From a virus: DNA of 24,584 nucleotides. Position numbers and translations under genes: made by a program. Under the pieces are notes generated by a model. That model saw only the letters and a list, made by a program, of their open reading frames with translations, did no database searches and had not been told where the DNA came from. Location of the stretch: the IMG/VR virus record IMGVR_UViG_3300032144_000041, positions 1-24,584 of that record, one strand, 5' to 3'. Of the stretch, positions 12,088 to 23,802 are shown in pieces (position 1 is the stretch's first letter; each line of letters begins with the position of its first letter).

Positions 12088-12507
12088 TCAAAACAGAATG
12101 TCGTCGTCCCCGTCGAACCCTGCCATGTTCGACGGGTCCTGGTCAGGCTCGCTCGAGGGGGCGGGCCGCGCGCCGCCCTTGCTGCTGCCCGATAGGATGA
12201 CGTTGCTCGCCACGACCTCCGTGCGATAGCGCTTCTCGCCGCCCTTCTCGTAGGAGCTGGCGCGCAAGCCCCCCTCGATGAATAGCCGATCGCCCTTGCG
12301 CACGATCTTGTTGAGACCCTCGGCGCGCTTGCCCCAGACGACGACCGAATGCCACTCGGTGCGCTCTTGCCGCGTGCGCTCCTTGTCGAGGTAGCTTTCG
12401 GTGGTTGCCAGCCGCAGCTTCAGGACGGCTTGCCCCCCGCTGGTCACGCGCAGCTCTGGGTCGGCGCCGAGGTTTCCGAGCAACATGACTTTATTAAGTC
12501 CATCCAT
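12088..12507 (-). CDS. ssb: Single-stranded DNA-binding protein
   Basis: This encodes 139 aa. It has the SSB OB-fold signature: LNKVMLLGNLGADPELR (4-20), a WHSVVVWGKRAE strand region (52-63), and a GDRLFIEGGLRASSYEKGG segment (72-90). It ends in an acidic tail FDGDDDILF, the SSB-type tip that recruits partner proteins. It would coat single strands during phage replication and recombination, and could work with the exonuclease-annealase fusion. The ribosome site AAAGGAG lies seven bases before ATG, directly after the HNH gene. Confidence 0.96.
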   Translation of the reverse strand: MDGLNKVMLLGNLGADPELRVTSGGQAVLKLRLATTESYLDKERTRQERTEWHSVVVWGKRAEGLNKIVRKGDRLFIEGGLRASSYEKGGEKRYRTEVVASNVILSGSSKGGARPAPSSEPDQDPSNMAGFDGDDDILF

Positions 12508-17120: not shown

Positions 17121-17335
17121 GCGACCAGTCGTCAGCGGAGCTGCGGCAGATACTGCAGACGCTCGCCGAGCGCGGTCTCTACGTCGTGACGAGTGACAGC
17201 ATCGCGGTGCTGGACGCCGCGGAGCGTTGGTATGCGGTTTGGGTCGAGCACGAACGCGAGCTCGGTGACCCGCAGGGCGTCGTCGCCGATCTCTTTCACT
17301 CCGTGAAACGTTGGAAGGGCAAGGGGCAGGTATGA
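17117..17335 (+). CDS. Small hypothetical protein before integrase
   Basis: This encodes 72 aa from GTG in a GTGA overlap. It is helical and charged (RQILQTLAERGLYVV; ADLFHSVKRWKGKG). The integrase start overlaps its stop (ATGA). It may be an accessory factor of the integration module, by position only. Confidence 0.62.
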   Translation: MSDQSSAELRQILQTLAERGLYVVTSDSIAVLDAAERWYAVWVEHERELGDPQGVVADLFHSVKRWKGKGQV

Positions 17336-18960
17336 CCGAGAAGCGAAGGCCTGGGCGCCCGCGTGGCGCGGCGAGTGAGCGCCTCGCCTCGGGCAAGCGC
17401 GGCGCGCGCGTGACCTTGACCATCGACGGCGAGAGCGTGCGCAAGCGCGTGCAGCTCGAGACGGCAGATCCGGCGGTGGCGGCCGTGAAGATCGAAAAAC
17501 TCCAAGCCGCCGAGCTCGCGGCGGAGCCGTCGCCCTCGGCCGACACCTTCGGGGAGGTGGCGCTCGTCGTGTTCGCGGAGCGCGCAGAGCGCGGCGTTCA
17601 CCGCGTCGACATCGAGAAGGGGCGCGTCGATAACCACGTGCTGCCGTTCGTGGGCAAGCTCGTCACCGTGCCGTTTGGCGACCGGGTGCTCTCCGCCATC
17701 ACGCCGAAGGAAGTGTTCGAGCTGCTCGCCCATAAGCGCGACGAGGGCTACAGCCTCGAGCAGCTCAAGAAGATCAAAACGGCGCTCGGCTACGTCTTCC
17801 GGCACGCCGGGCTCGACACGATGACGAAGGTCGCCATGCCCCCGATGGCGGCGGCGCTGAAGAAGTCACGCGCGGTCGCGAGCGACGAGGTCTTGCTCGC
17901 CTACCTCGCCTGGGAGCACCCGGAGGCTCGCCACCGCGCCGCCGTGCGCATGCGCCAGGCGATGAGCGCGGTCAGCCGCTGCATCGGCGGCCAGCGCACG
18001 AACGACCTCCACGTCGCGACCTGGCAGGATAACCTCCTCATCCCCGAGGTGGGCGAGCCCGATTTTTCGGAGGTGTGGGTGCCGCGCACGAAGAAGCAGG
18101 CGCCCCAATTGCTCGAGACCCCGGAGGGGGTGCGGCCGATGCTGCGCCTGTGGTGGGAGTGGTCGGGCCGCCCGCGCACCGGGCCCGTCTTCCCCCTCAT
18201 CCGGGGTGATCACGCGGGGGAGGTTCGAGAGGTGCAAGACAGCCACGCGGAAGCACTTCGACGTGATCTCCGGCGCGCGCTCGGCATCGAGCGCTGGGAT
18301 GCCGACTTCGGCAAGGGGCAGCGCGGGCCGCAGGGGCGGTGGGTGCCCGGAAGGGCGCCGACGGCGAAGGAGAAGGCTCTGTTCGAGGAGGGGCGCTACA
18401 CCTTGCCGGTCGACTTTCACTCGTGGCGCCGAGCCTGGAGCCAGGGCCTGCGGAAGGCGGGGGCGAACGTGCAGACGAGCGCGGCGATCACGGGGCACGC
18501 TTCCGACTTGCGGGCTCACGGTCGCTACCTCGAGAGCCCGACGGAGGCCATGGTGGTGCCGGCGGGGGCGGTTCCGAATATTGGCCGGCTTCTGGCCGAA
18601 ACTCATGGAGGAGTTTTGAAAAACCGTAATGATATCGAGCGCGCCCGGGTGGATTCGAACCACCGACCCTTGGCTTCGGAGGGCAATCCCGAAGCTGTTT
18701 TAAAGGGGTTTTCGCAATCCGAGGCCTCACCCCCTCACCACGAAAACGACGAGGAAACGACTGGTGACGACAGCGCCGGACGAAACCCCCGGACAGAACT
18801 CCCGAGCCTCGGCGAGGCGCTCACCGACCTCGTGACGCGCGCCATGAAGGAGGGCGACCTCCTGCTCGCGAAGGAGCTGTTTGCGGTGGTCGAGCGCCGC
18901 CGTGCGCAGCTGCCCGACAACGTGCGCCCCCTCGACGCGGCGCGAAAGGGGAAGTCATGA
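17332..18960 (+). CDS. int: Tyrosine site-specific integrase with internal attP
   Basis: This encodes 542 aa from ATG 17332. The N-terminal arm and core-binding region covers about 1-180. The catalytic domain shows Arg222 (GQRTNDL), Lys254/255 on the beta strand, HSWRR (His363, Arg366), GHASD (His389) and GRYLES (Tyr399), the complete set of a tyrosine recombinase. Beyond the active site, residues 437-451 (ARVDSNHRPLASEG) are encoded by the antisense of a tRNA 3' half, the probable attP core. After it comes a polar linker and a helical tail (496-525). Integration at this site would leave the catalytic domain intact and replace the last 90 or so residues, as recalled for phage Mx8. Confidence 0.93.
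   Translation: MTEKRRPGRPRGAASERLASGKRGARVTLTIDGESVRKRVQLETADPAVAAVKIEKLQAAELAAEPSPSADTFGEVALVVFAERAERGVHRVDIEKGRVDNHVLPFVGKLVTVPFGDRVLSAITPKEVFELLAHKRDEGYSLEQLKKIKTALGYVFRHAGLDTMTKVAMPPMAAALKKSRAVASDEVLLAYLAWEHPEARHRAAVRMRQAMSAVSRCIGGQRTNDLHVATWQDNLLIPEVGEPDFSEVWVPRTKKQAPQLLETPEGVRPMLRLWWEWSGRPRTGPVFPLIRGDHAGEVREVQDSHAEALRRDLRRALGIERWDADFGKGQRGPQGRWVPGRAPTAKEKALFEEGRYTLPVDFHSWRRAWSQGLRKAGANVQTSAAITGHASDLRAHGRYLESPTEAMVVPAGAVPNIGRLLAETHGGVLKNRNDIERARVDSNHRPLASEGNPEAVLKGFSQSEASPPHHENDEETTGDDSAGRNPRTELPSLGEALTDLVTRAMKEGDLLLAKELFAVVERRRAQLPDNVRPLDAARKGKS
18640..18686 (-). other. Probable attP core: tRNA-Arg(CCG) 3' half, antisense, inside int
   Basis: On the minus strand this reads as an anticodon loop CTCCGAA (18681-18675), a 3' anticodon stem GCCAA, a five-base variable loop GGGTC, a perfect T-arm GGTGG-TTCGAAT-CCACC (18664-18648), a seven-base acceptor strand CGGGCGC and a discriminator G (18640). 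The 5' anticodon stem TTGCC has one mismatch, and the 5' half of a tRNA is absent. This is the usual footprint of a phage core matching a host tRNA end. TTGGC and GGCAA flank the loop as imperfect inverted core sites. Confidence 0.8.
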
Positions 18961-19638: not shown

Positions 19639-20663
19639 GACACCCGTACACCCCCGTCTTCCGCGACTTCCTCACCTCGAGCATGTGGGCGACCGACCCG
19701 GCCACGCGCTGCGTCTGGATCTGGTTCCTGCTCATGGCCGACCCCGAGGGCTTCGTCGTCGGCACCGTGCCCGGCGTCGCCCAGCAGGCGGGCGTCACCC
19801 TCGAGCAAGCCAAGGCCGCGATCGAGATGCTCGAGAGCCCCGACCCCTACAGCTCGACGCCCGAGCTCGAAGGCCGCCGCCTCGTCAAGGTCGCGCGCGG
19901 CTGGCACATCGTCAACTTCGTCGCCTACCGCGAGCGTTCCAAGGTCGAGGCGGAGAAGGCACGCAAGCGCGCATGGGCGAAGAAGGACTACGACGCCAAG
20001 CGCCAGCTCACCCTCCCAGGCGTCGAGATGGGTCCAGACCTAGACGCGCCTAGCGAACCTCTCGACGCACCTAAACCGAAACCCAAACCTCTTCTCTCTT
20101 CATCATCAACGGGCGAGCCGCTGGTTATCCACACCTGGCCCGAGGGGCTCGAGCTGAACGAGTCGTTCATCGCCAAGGCGAAGATGGCCGGCGTGCAGGA
20201 CCCACAGAAGTGGTTCGACAAGCTCAAGCAGGGCCCGATCGGCGGCAGCCGGGGCGTGCTCGCGCACAAGCTGAACGACTACCTCGAAGACCAGATCGGC
20301 AAGTGGCGAACCTGGGAGGAGACGGACCGGGCGAAGGATGCCCAACGCTCCGCCGCTTCCGCCCCGTCCTCGCGCTTTGCTGGCAAACCCGTCCCCGTGG
20401 ACCCCCTCGAGCCCGAGCCCCGCCACGAGGCGTTTGCGCGCCAGCACGGACTCGACCTCGATGCTCTCGTGAAAGGTGTGCTCGTTGACTACCCCCAGCA
20501 GCTCGCCCCGCCGCTCTCGCGCCGCCAGCTGCTCGGCGAGCGGCTCACCGTCGCCGCCAAGCAGAAGCGTCACGGCCAGCCCGTGACCGGCAAGCTCACC
20601 CCGGCGCAACTCGCGCAGTGGGGCCCGGTGCCGACCGGCGGCGCCATCCCGGAGGTCGCGTGA
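19635..20663 (+). CDS. Replication-initiator-like protein
   Basis: This encodes 342 aa. The N-terminal 100 residues have the winged-helix style of phage replisome-organiser proteins: TSSMWATDPATRCVWIWFLL, then EGFVVGTVPGVAQQAGVTLE, and GRRLVKVARGWHIVNFVAYR. A Lys/Pro linker (about 148-160) leads to a second helical domain that could recruit a helicase or loader. No ATPase motif is seen. The position before recombination genes agrees with an origin-binding role; the GTTCAGTG array is a possible target, which is inference. Confidence 0.72.
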   Translation: MRHPYTPVFRDFLTSSMWATDPATRCVWIWFLLMADPEGFVVGTVPGVAQQAGVTLEQAKAAIEMLESPDPYSSTPELEGRRLVKVARGWHIVNFVAYRERSKVEAEKARKRAWAKKDYDAKRQLTLPGVEMGPDLDAPSEPLDAPKPKPKPLLSSSSTGEPLVIHTWPEGLELNESFIAKAKMAGVQDPQKWFDKLKQGPIGGSRGVLAHKLNDYLEDQIGKWRTWEETDRAKDAQRSAASAPSSRFAGKPVPVDPLEPEPRHEAFARQHGLDLDALVKGVLVDYPQQLAPPLSRRQLLGERLTVAAKQKRHGQPVTGKLTPAQLAQWGPVPTGGAIPEVA

Positions 20664-20932
20664 AGCTCACGAAGGGGCAGAAGCGGGTGCTCATCTTCAT
20701 CGCCCGCTACACCCGCCAGCACGGCTACTCGCCGACGTTCCGCGAGATCGCCACCCACATCAGCGCGACGAGTTCGAACTCCGTGCATTGCTTCCTCGTC
20801 CAGCTCGCCGCCAAGGGCGCAATCCTTCGCGGGCCGAAGAAGAGCAGCCGCACCATCACCCTCACCGAGGCGGCGCACGCCTACCTCGAGAGCATCGACT
20901 TCGGCTACCTGCTCGCGAGGCAGGCCGGATGA
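20660..20932 (+). CDS. Second LexA-NTD-like helix-turn-helix protein
   Basis: This encodes 90 aa from GTG in a GTGA overlap. LTKGQKRVLIFIARYTRQHG (3-22), then YSPTFREIATHISATSSNSV (23-42) and LVQLAAKGAI follow the LexA N-terminal layout, with no peptidase domain. It is likely a DNA-binding regulator, perhaps competing with or relieving the similar protein at 16017-16253. The two share layout rather than close identity. Confidence 0.75.
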   Translation: MKLTKGQKRVLIFIARYTRQHGYSPTFREIATHISATSSNSVHCFLVQLAAKGAILRGPKKSSRTITLTEAAHAYLESIDFGYLLARQAG

Positions 20933-21219: not shown

Positions 21220-21291
21220 CTTTCTCATGAACAGCGTCATAGAACACATTGACAGTGTACTAGTCCGATGGGACAACGAGAGGCGGTGGAC
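21220..21291 (+). promoter_or_regulatory. Promoter region of the exonuclease operon
   Basis: A perfect TTGACA (21249-21254) followed by GACAAC 17 bases later is a promoter candidate with a weak -10. GTACTAGTC (21257-21265) repeats the half-site of the 16477 palindrome, and GTCC-GATG-GGAC (21263-21274) is a short inverted repeat. The gap is lower in GC than its surroundings. Confidence 0.4.
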
Positions 21292-21534
21292 ATGACGAAG
21301 CACTACGCCGAGCACCGAGCTCGCCAGCAGTTCTCGAGGAAGCTCGAGCAGCTGGACTTCGAGCTCTCGGTCGAAGCGCCCCGCCGCGTCCTCGACTACC
21401 TCATCGACCATCTCGACGACCTACTGACCCGGGTCGGCGACAGCGTGCTGCGCGAGTCGTTCGCTCGCCAGCTCGACGCCGCCAAGACGCGCGTCTCGAC
21501 CCGCCACAACCTCCGCCTCGTGAAAGGAATCTGA
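21292..21534 (+). CDS. Small charged hypothetical protein
   Basis: This encodes 80 aa from ATG 21292, with GAGAGG eight bases upstream. ATG 21268 is in frame but has no ribosome site and lies within the promoter region. It is helical, rich in Asp/Arg/Leu (VLDYLIDHLDDLLTRVGD), and precedes the exonuclease-annealase gene by three bases, so it is co-translated with it. The function is unknown. Confidence 0.68.
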   Translation: MTKHYAEHRARQQFSRKLEQLDFELSVEAPRRVLDYLIDHLDDLLTRVGDSVLRESFARQLDAAKTRVSTRHNLRLVKGI

Positions 21535-21537
21535 CCC

Positions 21538-23268
21538 ATGTACCAGCGAATTGCCCTCGTCGACGTCTCGTGTCTCTTCAAGCGCACCTTCGAAGCGAAC
21601 CCCAACAAGGGCGCCACGAACACCCTCGCCGAGATCGAGCACATCGCGACGCGCGTCGACCACGTCATCCTCTGCCTCGACGCCCCGCCCTACGCTCGCA
21701 AGCAGATCTTCCCCGACTACAAGGCGCACCGCGACGAGCCGACCACGAGCGAGACCTACCAAAAGAAGTGGCTCTACGAACGGCTCGTCGAGCGCGGCTT
21801 CCAGATGGCGAGGCTCAAGGGGCAGGAGGCCGACGACGTGATGGCCACGCTCGCGCGCATCTACGGCGAGTCGATCCCCGAGGTCTGGCTCGTCGGCGCC
21901 GACAAGGATCTCGCTCAGTGCGTGACCGACAACGTGCTGCAGCTCATCCCCGTGCACGGCGAGCGGCCCGAGCACTTCCGGGGCCCGCCGCAGGTGAAGG
22001 AGAAGTACGGGGTCACGCCCGACCAGATGCCGCTCTGGCTCGCGCTCGTCGGCGACAAGAGCGACAACATCCCCGGCGTCAAGGGCATCGGGCAGGTCAA
22101 GGCGGCAACGCTCATCAACGACTACAAGACGCTGACGGGCATCGCCGAGAACCTCCAGCGCATCCCCGGTCAGGTCGGCAAGTCCCTCGCCGACGGCTGG
22201 GAGCAGCTCGTGCTCTCGCTCAAGCTCACGACCCTCGACACGCGGCTGCCGCTCGACGCGCAGGCCCTGCTCGAGAAGAAGGAGCCGAAGCCGGCGGAGC
22301 CCGCGCCGTCGCCCGCGCCGCAGGGCGAGCTCGAGTTCGACGGCTTCGTGGGCAACGAGACGCCCATGCCGGAGCCGGCGCCGGAGATGCCGGCGCCTCC
22401 GGTGAAGCACGAGATGAGCGCTCGCCCCGAGCCCCTCATCGGCAAGGACCCGCGCGCCGACGAGTTCCTGCGGCAGGAGGCCGAGGCGCGCGCGCAGATG
22501 CGCAACGCCGACCGCGCCGCCGAGGAGCAGCACGAGGCCGAGCAGAAGCGGGAGGAGGAGTGGCGCGAGAAGCGCCGGCGGGAGGTGGCCGCCGAGCAAG
22601 CCAAGCTCGACACCCTGAAGAGCGCGCCCGCTCCGAAGGCCGCCCCCGCTCCAGCGCCGGCGGCGGAGTTCGACCCGATCGGCAAGAGCCCAGGCGCGAG
22701 CGGGCCCCTGCCGCCCCTGCCGACGAGGCCCACCGTCGTGCCCCTGCCGGGGCCCGTCAAGGCCAACCTGCGGGGGCTCGCCCTGCTGCGTGCCCCGTTC
22801 GAGAAGCACCAGATCAGCAAGCTCCCGAAGGGCTCGAAGGAGCAGAACAACTGCCCCTACAACGAGAAGCGCAGCTGCAACGTGTGCGGCGGCTTCCACC
22901 ACCCGAAGATGGTTCACCTCGACTACGTCGGGCACGCCGCGCTCACCGACCGGCTCCTCGAGGCGGACCCCCTCTGGTCCTGGGAGCCGATGAGCTACGC
23001 CCCCAATGGCTTGCCGCTGTTCGACCAGACCGGCGGGCTCTGGATTCGGCTGACGGTCTGCGGCGTGACGCGGTTCGGCTACGGGCACGCGCCGAGCAAG
23101 ACGTTCCAAGAGCCGGGCGCGCGCGAGAAGGAGATCATCGGTGATGCCCTGCGCAACGCCGCGATGCGGTTCGGCGCGGCGCTCGACCTCTGGCACAAGG
23201 GCGAGGAGCTGCACGGCGAGGACTGGGACGCGACCGCCGCCTGGCAGGACGCCATGGGGGGCGCGTGA
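21538..23268 (+). CDS. Fused 5'-3' exonuclease and Rad52-like annealing protein
   Basis: This encodes 576 aa in one uninterrupted frame. Residues 1-245 form a FEN/Pol I-type 5' nuclease: Asp9 (LVDV), Asp48 (CLDAP), the KAHR arch, GQEADDVMATLA (Asp99/100), VGADKDLAQ (Asp122/124) and GDKSDNIPGVKGIG (172-185, helix-hairpin). Residues 250-405 are a Pro/Ala linker with a charged coiled coil (about 303-360). Residues 410-560 look like a Rad52/Erf-type single-strand annealing domain: Cys439/447/450 with His454/455 (metal knot), VHLDYVGHAALTDRLLEADP (459-478), then EIIGDALRNAAMRFGAALDL (532-551). It would resect ends and anneal single strands in one molecule. Confidence 0.85.
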   Translation: MYQRIALVDVSCLFKRTFEANPNKGATNTLAEIEHIATRVDHVILCLDAPPYARKQIFPDYKAHRDEPTTSETYQKKWLYERLVERGFQMARLKGQEADDVMATLARIYGESIPEVWLVGADKDLAQCVTDNVLQLIPVHGERPEHFRGPPQVKEKYGVTPDQMPLWLALVGDKSDNIPGVKGIGQVKAATLINDYKTLTGIAENLQRIPGQVGKSLADGWEQLVLSLKLTTLDTRLPLDAQALLEKKEPKPAEPAPSPAPQGELEFDGFVGNETPMPEPAPEMPAPPVKHEMSARPEPLIGKDPRADEFLRQEAEARAQMRNADRAAEEQHEAEQKREEEWREKRRREVAAEQAKLDTLKSAPAPKAAPAPAPAAEFDPIGKSPGASGPLPPLPTRPTVVPLPGPVKANLRGLALLRAPFEKHQISKLPKGSKEQNNCPYNEKRSCNVCGGFHHPKMVHLDYVGHAALTDRLLEADPLWSWEPMSYAPNGLPLFDQTGGLWIRLTVCGVTRFGYGHAPSKTFQEPGAREKEIIGDALRNAAMRFGAALDLWHKGEELHGEDWDATAAWQDAMGGA

Positions 23269-23474
23269 AAGCATCGTCCGTCACGAGCACGAAGGTCAGC
23301 GTGCACATCTCGGAGACGGAACTCGTAGCACTCGTGCGGTCGGCGGGGATTCACGTCCCCGCCGACACGGCGGTCGACTGCTACGCCGCTCCGTTCGACA
23401 CAGAGTTCGACCCCGACGGTGGCGGCATCATCGTCGAGTGGACGCAGGAGCACGATGCCCCGAAGCAAGGCTGA
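23265..23474 (+). CDS. Small hypothetical protein
   Basis: This encodes 69 aa from GTG in a GTGA overlap with the fusion gene. The N-terminal half KVSVHISETELVALVRSAG is beta-helix, and the end is acidic (DTEFDPDGGGIIVEW). It resembles small phage proteins made alongside recombinases, but I do not recognise it. Confidence 0.66.
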   Translation: MKASSVTSTKVSVHISETELVALVRSAGIHVPADTAVDCYAAPFDTEFDPDGGGIIVEWTQEHDAPKQG

Positions 23475-23802
23475 GGAATGCCTCGCGGCCGCACTCGACG
23501 CCCAGCCCCTACCGGGCTGGGACTTGACCCGCGAATACCCCTTCGACAAGGGGCGCAGGTGGAGGTTCGACTTTGCGTTCCCGAGCCAGAAGCTGGCGGT
23601 GGAGTGCGACGGCCTCCGCCACCGGACGGCGGGGGGCGCCATCACGGACATGGAGAAGTGCAACGAGGCCGTGCGCCAGGGCTGGCGCGTGCTGCACTTC
23701 CCGTCGAGTCGCGCCAACCCGACGAGCGCGCGACGCTGGGCCTCGTTCATCCTCGAGGTGCTGTGCTGTCCCCCGAGCACAGCGCGCGAATCGGACGGAT
23801 AG
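23455..23802 (+). CDS. DUF559/Vsr-like PD-(D/E)XK nuclease
   Basis: This encodes 115 aa from ATG 23455 with CAGGAG just upstream, overlapping the previous gene by 20 bases. RWRFDFAFPSQKLAVECDG (35-53) carries the acidic active-site core (Asp39, Glu50, Asp52), and the GGAITDMEKCNEAVRQGWRV segment with a final HFPSS is the usual end of the fold. Relatives include Vsr and DUF559 proteins. The role here may be cutting recombination intermediates or phage or host DNA. Confidence 0.8.
   Translation: MPRSKAEECLAAALDAQPLPGWDLTREYPFDKGRRWRFDFAFPSQKLAVECDGLRHRTAGGAITDMEKCNEAVRQGWRVLHFPSSRANPTSARRWASFILEVLCCPPSTARESDG

Follow-up and report, generated by a model that had tools for sequence, protein, structure and literature searches.

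The window, as the whole 24,584-nt stretch of viral DNA analyzed here is called (positions 1 to 24,584 of IMGVR_UViG_3300032144_000041), carries a gene (21538-23268, plus strand) in which a 5'-3' exonuclease of the FEN/DNA polymerase I (Pol I) type is fused to a single-strand annealing protein (SSAP) domain. Most probably, the gene product serves a temperate-type dsDNA phage as a recombinase that combines synaptase and exonuclease (SynExo) in a single chain; its activity is predicted from sequence. Comparison of related contigs demonstrated, at the level of sequence, that the joined exonuclease-SSAP form is conserved by descent and that its annealing module is exchangeable. Joining FEN and SSAP in a single chain appears to be new, as does the module exchange; the parts themselves are of known kinds.

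The fusion gene and its domains

The fusion gene is a single uninterrupted open reading frame (ORF) of 576 aa that begins with ATG, lacks internal stops and has a Shine-Dalgarno-like stretch (AAAGGA) just 5' of the start codon; the preliminary description had placed both activities on one polypeptide, and this is borne out by the intact ORF. Third-position GC is uniform across the exonuclease (0.955), the linker (0.958) and the SSAP part (0.958), which argues that a single reading frame codes from end to end of the gene. An antisense ORF of 617 aa (21421-23274) was rejected as a mirror of high-GC coding. The features of the gene and its surroundings are collected in Table 1.

Table 1. Features of the fusion gene and its genomic surroundings in the window.
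Feature	Position	Strand	Residues, basis or remarks
Phage SSB	12088..12507	-	Pfam SSB 5.4e-30
88-aa ORF	21268..21534	+	Ends 3 bp before fusion gene; same transcription unit (ORF list)
FEN/Pol I-type 5'-3' exonuclease domain	21538..22266	+	Residues 1-243
Disordered Pro/Glu/Ala linker part 1	22267..22449	+	Residues 244-304; AF2 pLDDT <50 mostly; composition
Recurring linker motif FDGFVGNETPMPE	22336..22374	+	Residues 267-279
Long charged alpha-helix PRADEFLRQEAEARAQMRNADRAAEEQHEAEQKREEEW...	22450..22620	+	Residues 305-361; AF2 pLDDT about 90
Disordered Pro/Ala linker part 2	22621..22767	+	Residues 362-410; low AF2 confidence; composition
Recurring linker motif AEFDPIGKSP	22663..22692	+	Residues 376-385
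Rad52-type single-strand annealing domain (predicted)	22768..23268	+	Residues 411-576, stop codon included
Putative metal-binding insertion C439-x7-C447-x2-C450-x3-HH455	22852..22902	+	SSAP alignments
69-aa ORF	23265..23474	+	Start overlaps fusion gene stop (ORF list)
DUF559 / PD-(D/E)XK-like nuclease gene	23419..23802	+	Pfam DUF559 4.5e-6, above cut-off

In Pfam searches, the exonuclease half (residues 8-242) matches 5_3_exonuc_N (PF02739; 4.6e-21, 75.7 bits, cut-off 34.3) and 5_3_exonuc (PF01367; 3.4e-23, 82.4 bits, cut-off 40), that is, a PIN-like (resolvase-like) N-terminal domain and a SAM-fold C-terminal domain, both above curated cut-offs. Residues 59-264 of Taq polymerase align with this half, and searches of NCBIfam and of PDB sequences group it with the 5' nuclease of DNA polymerase I, Xni and T5 exonuclease, the flap nucleases Pol I and Xni being the closest in sequence. 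All nine metal-binding catalytic acids are present in the window (D9, D48, E97, D99, D100, D122, D124, D173, and D176), confirming the earlier claim that every acidic motif of a FEN-type nuclease is kept; across the 26 fusions described below, eight of these positions are conserved in 26/26 and the ninth, D99, in 25/26 (one D99E). Judged by these features, the N-terminal half is complete as a 5'-3' exonuclease of the Pol I/FEN type, with predicted activity.

The full-length AlphaFold2 (AF2) model (pTM 0.37), which is only partly confident in the exonuclease because the alignment is shallow, was used for the linker only. It places disorder at about residues 234-304 and 362-410, with one continuous helix (305-361), rich in Glu, Arg, Lys, and Ala, between them. 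The preliminary description had proposed a Pro/Ala linker with a coiled coil; the disordered linker holding a helix was recovered, but a classical coiled coil was not supported, as hydrophobic heptads are missing (at best 4 of 16 a/d positions are hydrophobic in any register). The salt-bridge excess of the helix over shuffled sequences is borderline (0.052), and its segment KDPRADEFLRQEA is also kept in L002, a fusion of the RecT type. As modeled, the helix seems closer to a charged single helix, and a stiff, charged stretch within a tether would describe it better than a coiled coil. Two motifs, [DEQ][FW]xP[IF][SG] (AEFDPIG in the window) and [RGP]N[ATED]TP (GNETP in the window), each recur in 11 of the 26 fusion linkers, whereas shuffling the linkers gave at most 1; outside them the linkers are variable. 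Since the linkers share descent, this recurrence is evidence of conservation, not of function.

The annealing half was assigned by relatives and by fold. A match to PHROG 3290 (single strand annealing protein) at 1.2e-49 covers residues 411-568, and stand-alone SSAPs of mycobacteriophages and of Streptomyces phage ZL12 are 50-57% identical to the domain. The window's own SSAP domain has no match to Pfam Rad52_Rad22 (PF04098)/SSAP_Sak, and 21 of 37 relatives match PF04098 weakly (best 7.5e-4); a search of PDB sequences with the domain, single or as a profile, returned nothing useful, and the fold was therefore taken from structure prediction. An AF2 model of the domain built from the 37 relatives (pLDDT 89.5, pTM 0.77) retrieved Rad52 (5.1e-5), Mgm101 (8.2e-5), and 80alpha Sak (1.7e-4) as best Foldseek matches in the PDB, and all 16 PDB matches at E <= 0.001 were human Rad52, yeast Mgm101 or phage 80alpha Sak (probability 1.00, TM about 0.5). 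A viral fold library yielded phage Rad52/Sak3 proteins and weak matches to Erf. The domain thus matches a recombination fold; of the Rad52/Erf-type assignment made earlier the Rad52 part is upheld and the Erf part is not, the domain belonging with Rad52/Sak. By predicted fold and by its relatives, the C-terminal domain is a Rad52-fold annealing domain, for which annealing is predicted.

A Cys/His motif had also been noted in this domain and was located at C439, C447, C450, H454, and H455, a putative metal site. The insertion is optional in the SSAP family: many relatives carry CxxC...H, and the mycobacteriophage proteins, L085 and L094 do not. A PHROG 3290 SSAP is also present in the Thermus composti genome, which served as a control, probably in a prophage.

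The fusion family and exchange of the annealing module

A first scan of IMG/VR contigs recovered two relatives: L001, with the same architecture and 79% identity to the window protein, and L002, in which an exonuclease and linker like those of the window are followed by a RecT protein. Further scanning, for which the linker, RecT part, and exonuclease served as queries, widened the family to 26 IMG/VR contigs with intact FEN exonuclease-SSAP fusions, the window included; L163 and L164 encode an identical protein and were counted once. Four of the fusions are of the Rad52 type (the window, L001, L146, and L191) and 22 of the RecT type (L002:6001-7710, L163:4002-5495, L165:3978-5483, and 19 further loci). 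Pfam RecT (PF03837) was found in 20 of the 22 C-terminal domains of the RecT type, above the cut-off in L002, and not in the fusion proteins of the window, L001, and L146. The fusion is thus unbroken in 25 contigs other than the window, three of the Rad52 type and 22 of the exonuclease-RecT type, and on this ground a sequencing frameshift or chance fusion was rejected as the origin of the fusion gene.

The exonuclease tree unites the four Rad52-type fusions and the RecT-type L002 in one clade (100/99). This clade sits within a larger one (22 rows; 99/99), in which every other member of known C-terminus is of the RecT type. The nesting argues for exchange of the annealing module, with exonuclease and linker conserved. 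The simplest history suggested by the sequences would be an ancestral FEN-RecT fusion with later replacement by a Rad52-type module, either once with a reversal or twice.

Several other loci were encountered. Contig ends have probably truncated further fusions at L166 and at the pair L177/L203, which stand outside the 26; in the pair (IMGVR_UViG_3300034089_000065), the fusion gene seems to span both contig ends, as in a circularly permuted genome. At L204:3764-5609, the exonuclease and RecT lie in two overlapping frames, with one base different from L201:3764-5608, which represents either a natural frameshift or a sequencing error. L099, L095, L098, and L082 were considered as further N-terminally extended SSAPs and rejected, their upstream parts appearing by eye to be low-complexity frame extensions.

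Searches beyond IMG/VR returned no further fusion. With both fusion types as query, no place in 50,697 phage records covered 80% of the fusion protein, nor did any in 72,556 plasmid records with the RecT-type fusion as query; a bacterial genome scan with the exonuclease alignment and narrow patterns gave one match, which was unrelated. No such fusion is described in the openly available papers searched, which covered polyvalent proteins, jumbo phages, Firmicutes SSAPs, and exonuclease-SSAP fusions. Among Salinibacter ruber phages (e.g., OR896330, 7018-7422), a protein annotated as hypothetical is distantly related to the fused RecT domain; it occurs in 185 Salinibacter phage records.

Gene partners and predicted mode of action

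ORFs resembling the 88-aa ORF occupy the equivalent place in L001, L002, and L146, and the same three contigs have an ORF resembling the DUF559 gene downstream of the fusion. The preliminary description had placed both an SSB and a DUF559 nuclease nearby; the latter is immediately downstream, but the SSB, although real, lies about 9 kb away on the opposite strand. SSB is present in 5/5 records examined. Four fusion records (G000-G003) each encode one FEN exonuclease, one SSAP, and SSB; neither a YqaJ/lambda-Exo gene nor a phage Pol A was found in these records, which are possibly incomplete. Two other ORFs of the window were observed on the plus strand: a 549-aa integrase-like ORF (17311-18960; PHROG integrase 1.9e-7, Pfam Phage_integrase only 0.017), which suggests a temperate phage, and, just upstream of the recombination genes, a LexA-type winged helix without the peptidase part (20618-20932; Pfam LexA_DNA_bind 8.8e-15).

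Exonuclease and SSAP are paired by gene association, fused in the 26 contigs and encoded by neighboring genes in stand-alone relatives. Stand-alone genes of the window's SSAP family adjoin lambda-type exonuclease genes in nine of ten neighborhoods examined, the neighbor being YqaJ in L067 and L080 and a PHROG exonuclease in L064, L072, L075, L077, L079, L083, and L084. At L085:4980-6316, the SSAP gene is followed by a separate FEN exonuclease gene overlapping its end, an arrangement that amounts to a split version of the fusion with reversed gene order. As the stand-alone SSAPs are paired with lambda-type exonucleases and the fusion phages show no other, the fused nuclease is placed in the resection role.

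In the proposed mechanism, the exonuclease would resect 5' strands at double-stranded ends or gaps and expose 3' ssDNA; the tethered annealing domain would load onto the 3' strand during its emergence and would then pair it with complementary ssDNA at a fork or at another resected end in the presence of the phage SSB. In lambda, Exo and Red-beta are coupled through a weak contact, with a KD of about 8 µM (PMC7496540); here the covalent tether would take its place. A tether would free the hand-off from a matched surface, so that exchange of RecT-type and Rad52-type modules behind the same exonuclease would be allowed. It is an evenly balanced proposition that, in these single-chain recombinases, the tether removed the need for a cognate interface, RecT and Rad52/Sak were swapped, and the short tether motifs AEFDPIS and NxTPMPE are docking sites for a further partner, for example SSB or the replisome. 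The large linker could also merely join two independently working enzymes.

The exonuclease may instead serve replication and flap processing, removing RNA primers and 5' flaps in the manner of Pol I, Xni, and T5 D15, with the SSAP targeting it to annealed intermediates, where it would trim flaps, and a host nuclease carrying out the initial resection. This reading is rather unlikely. The flap nucleases of Pol I and Xni are indeed the nearest sequence kin of the exonuclease, the search for a phage Pol A that would provide flap activity found none, and early Red models used the flap activity of Pol I after strand exchange (PMC7496540). The stand-alone SSAP relatives, however, are paired with lambda-type resection exonucleases, and the fusion phages show no other such exonuclease, which argues for resection by the fused nuclease. 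The two roles can coexist, since FEN activity could additionally trim 5' flaps left by annealing.

That the C-terminal domain acts as an accessory of the SSB or DNA-binding kind, targeting the nuclease, rather than as an annealing protein, is quite improbable: some depositors label the mycobacteriophage homologs as SSB or ssDNA-binding protein, but the predicted fold matches the annealing proteins Rad52, Mgm101, and Sak, and a RecT-type annealing protein fills the equivalent position in sister fusions. A pseudogene or chance fusion, in which genes were joined by deletion or sequencing error with no joint function, is extremely improbable, for although the one-base frameshift between the halves of L204 relative to L201 indicates that errors occur in such contigs, the 26 intact contigs include both classes of SSAP, reach across deep branches in the tree of the exonuclease, and keep the catalytic residues, and the window gene has coding base composition from end to end.

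Comparison with known recombination systems

In lambda Red-like systems the exonuclease and the annealing protein have to meet through a weak contact; a natural one-chain version makes the hand-off of the new strand from resection to annealing directly testable through linker changes, dead halves, and swaps between RecT-type and Rad52-type modules. In this family, modules have clearly been exchanged between two sequence classes of annealing protein, and for recombineering outside E. coli the fusion offers a single gene as an attractive place to start.

Each half of the fusion has close counterparts in other contexts. The nuclease domain is homologous to the N-terminal 5' nuclease of Pol I, Xni, and T5 D15 and shares the same nine acids; these are attached to a polymerase or stand alone, and none carries an annealing domain, unlike the window protein. 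The annealing domain is homologous (50-57% identity) to the stand-alone SSAPs of PHROG 3290, among them mycobacteriophage XFactor gp62 and its relatives and pZL12.29c of ZL12; no nuclease fusion occurs in those records, and the mycobacteriophage proteins lack the Cys/His insertion.

Among paired systems, the T7 gp6 exonuclease and the gp2.5 annealing/SSB protein likewise combine a FEN-family 5'-3' exonuclease with an annealing protein. The two T7 proteins are separate, and gp2.5 has an OB-fold rather than belonging to the Rad52 or RecT type. The lambda Red (lambda Exo and Red-beta) and RecET systems resemble the window in pairing a 5'-3' exonuclease with an SSAP and in having an SSB nearby, and they are linked to it further in that the window's SSAP family usually adjoins a YqaJ/lambda-Exo-type gene. 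They differ in that a nuclease of the PD-(D/E)XK (YqaJ) type and a RecT/Red-beta annealing domain reside on two separate proteins that associate weakly, whereas the window encodes a single chain in which a FEN/Pol I-type nuclease is joined to a predicted Rad52-fold annealing domain. As a single polypeptide with a FEN nuclease and no YqaJ, the window protein would thus work like a SynExo recombinase while standing apart from the two-polypeptide class.
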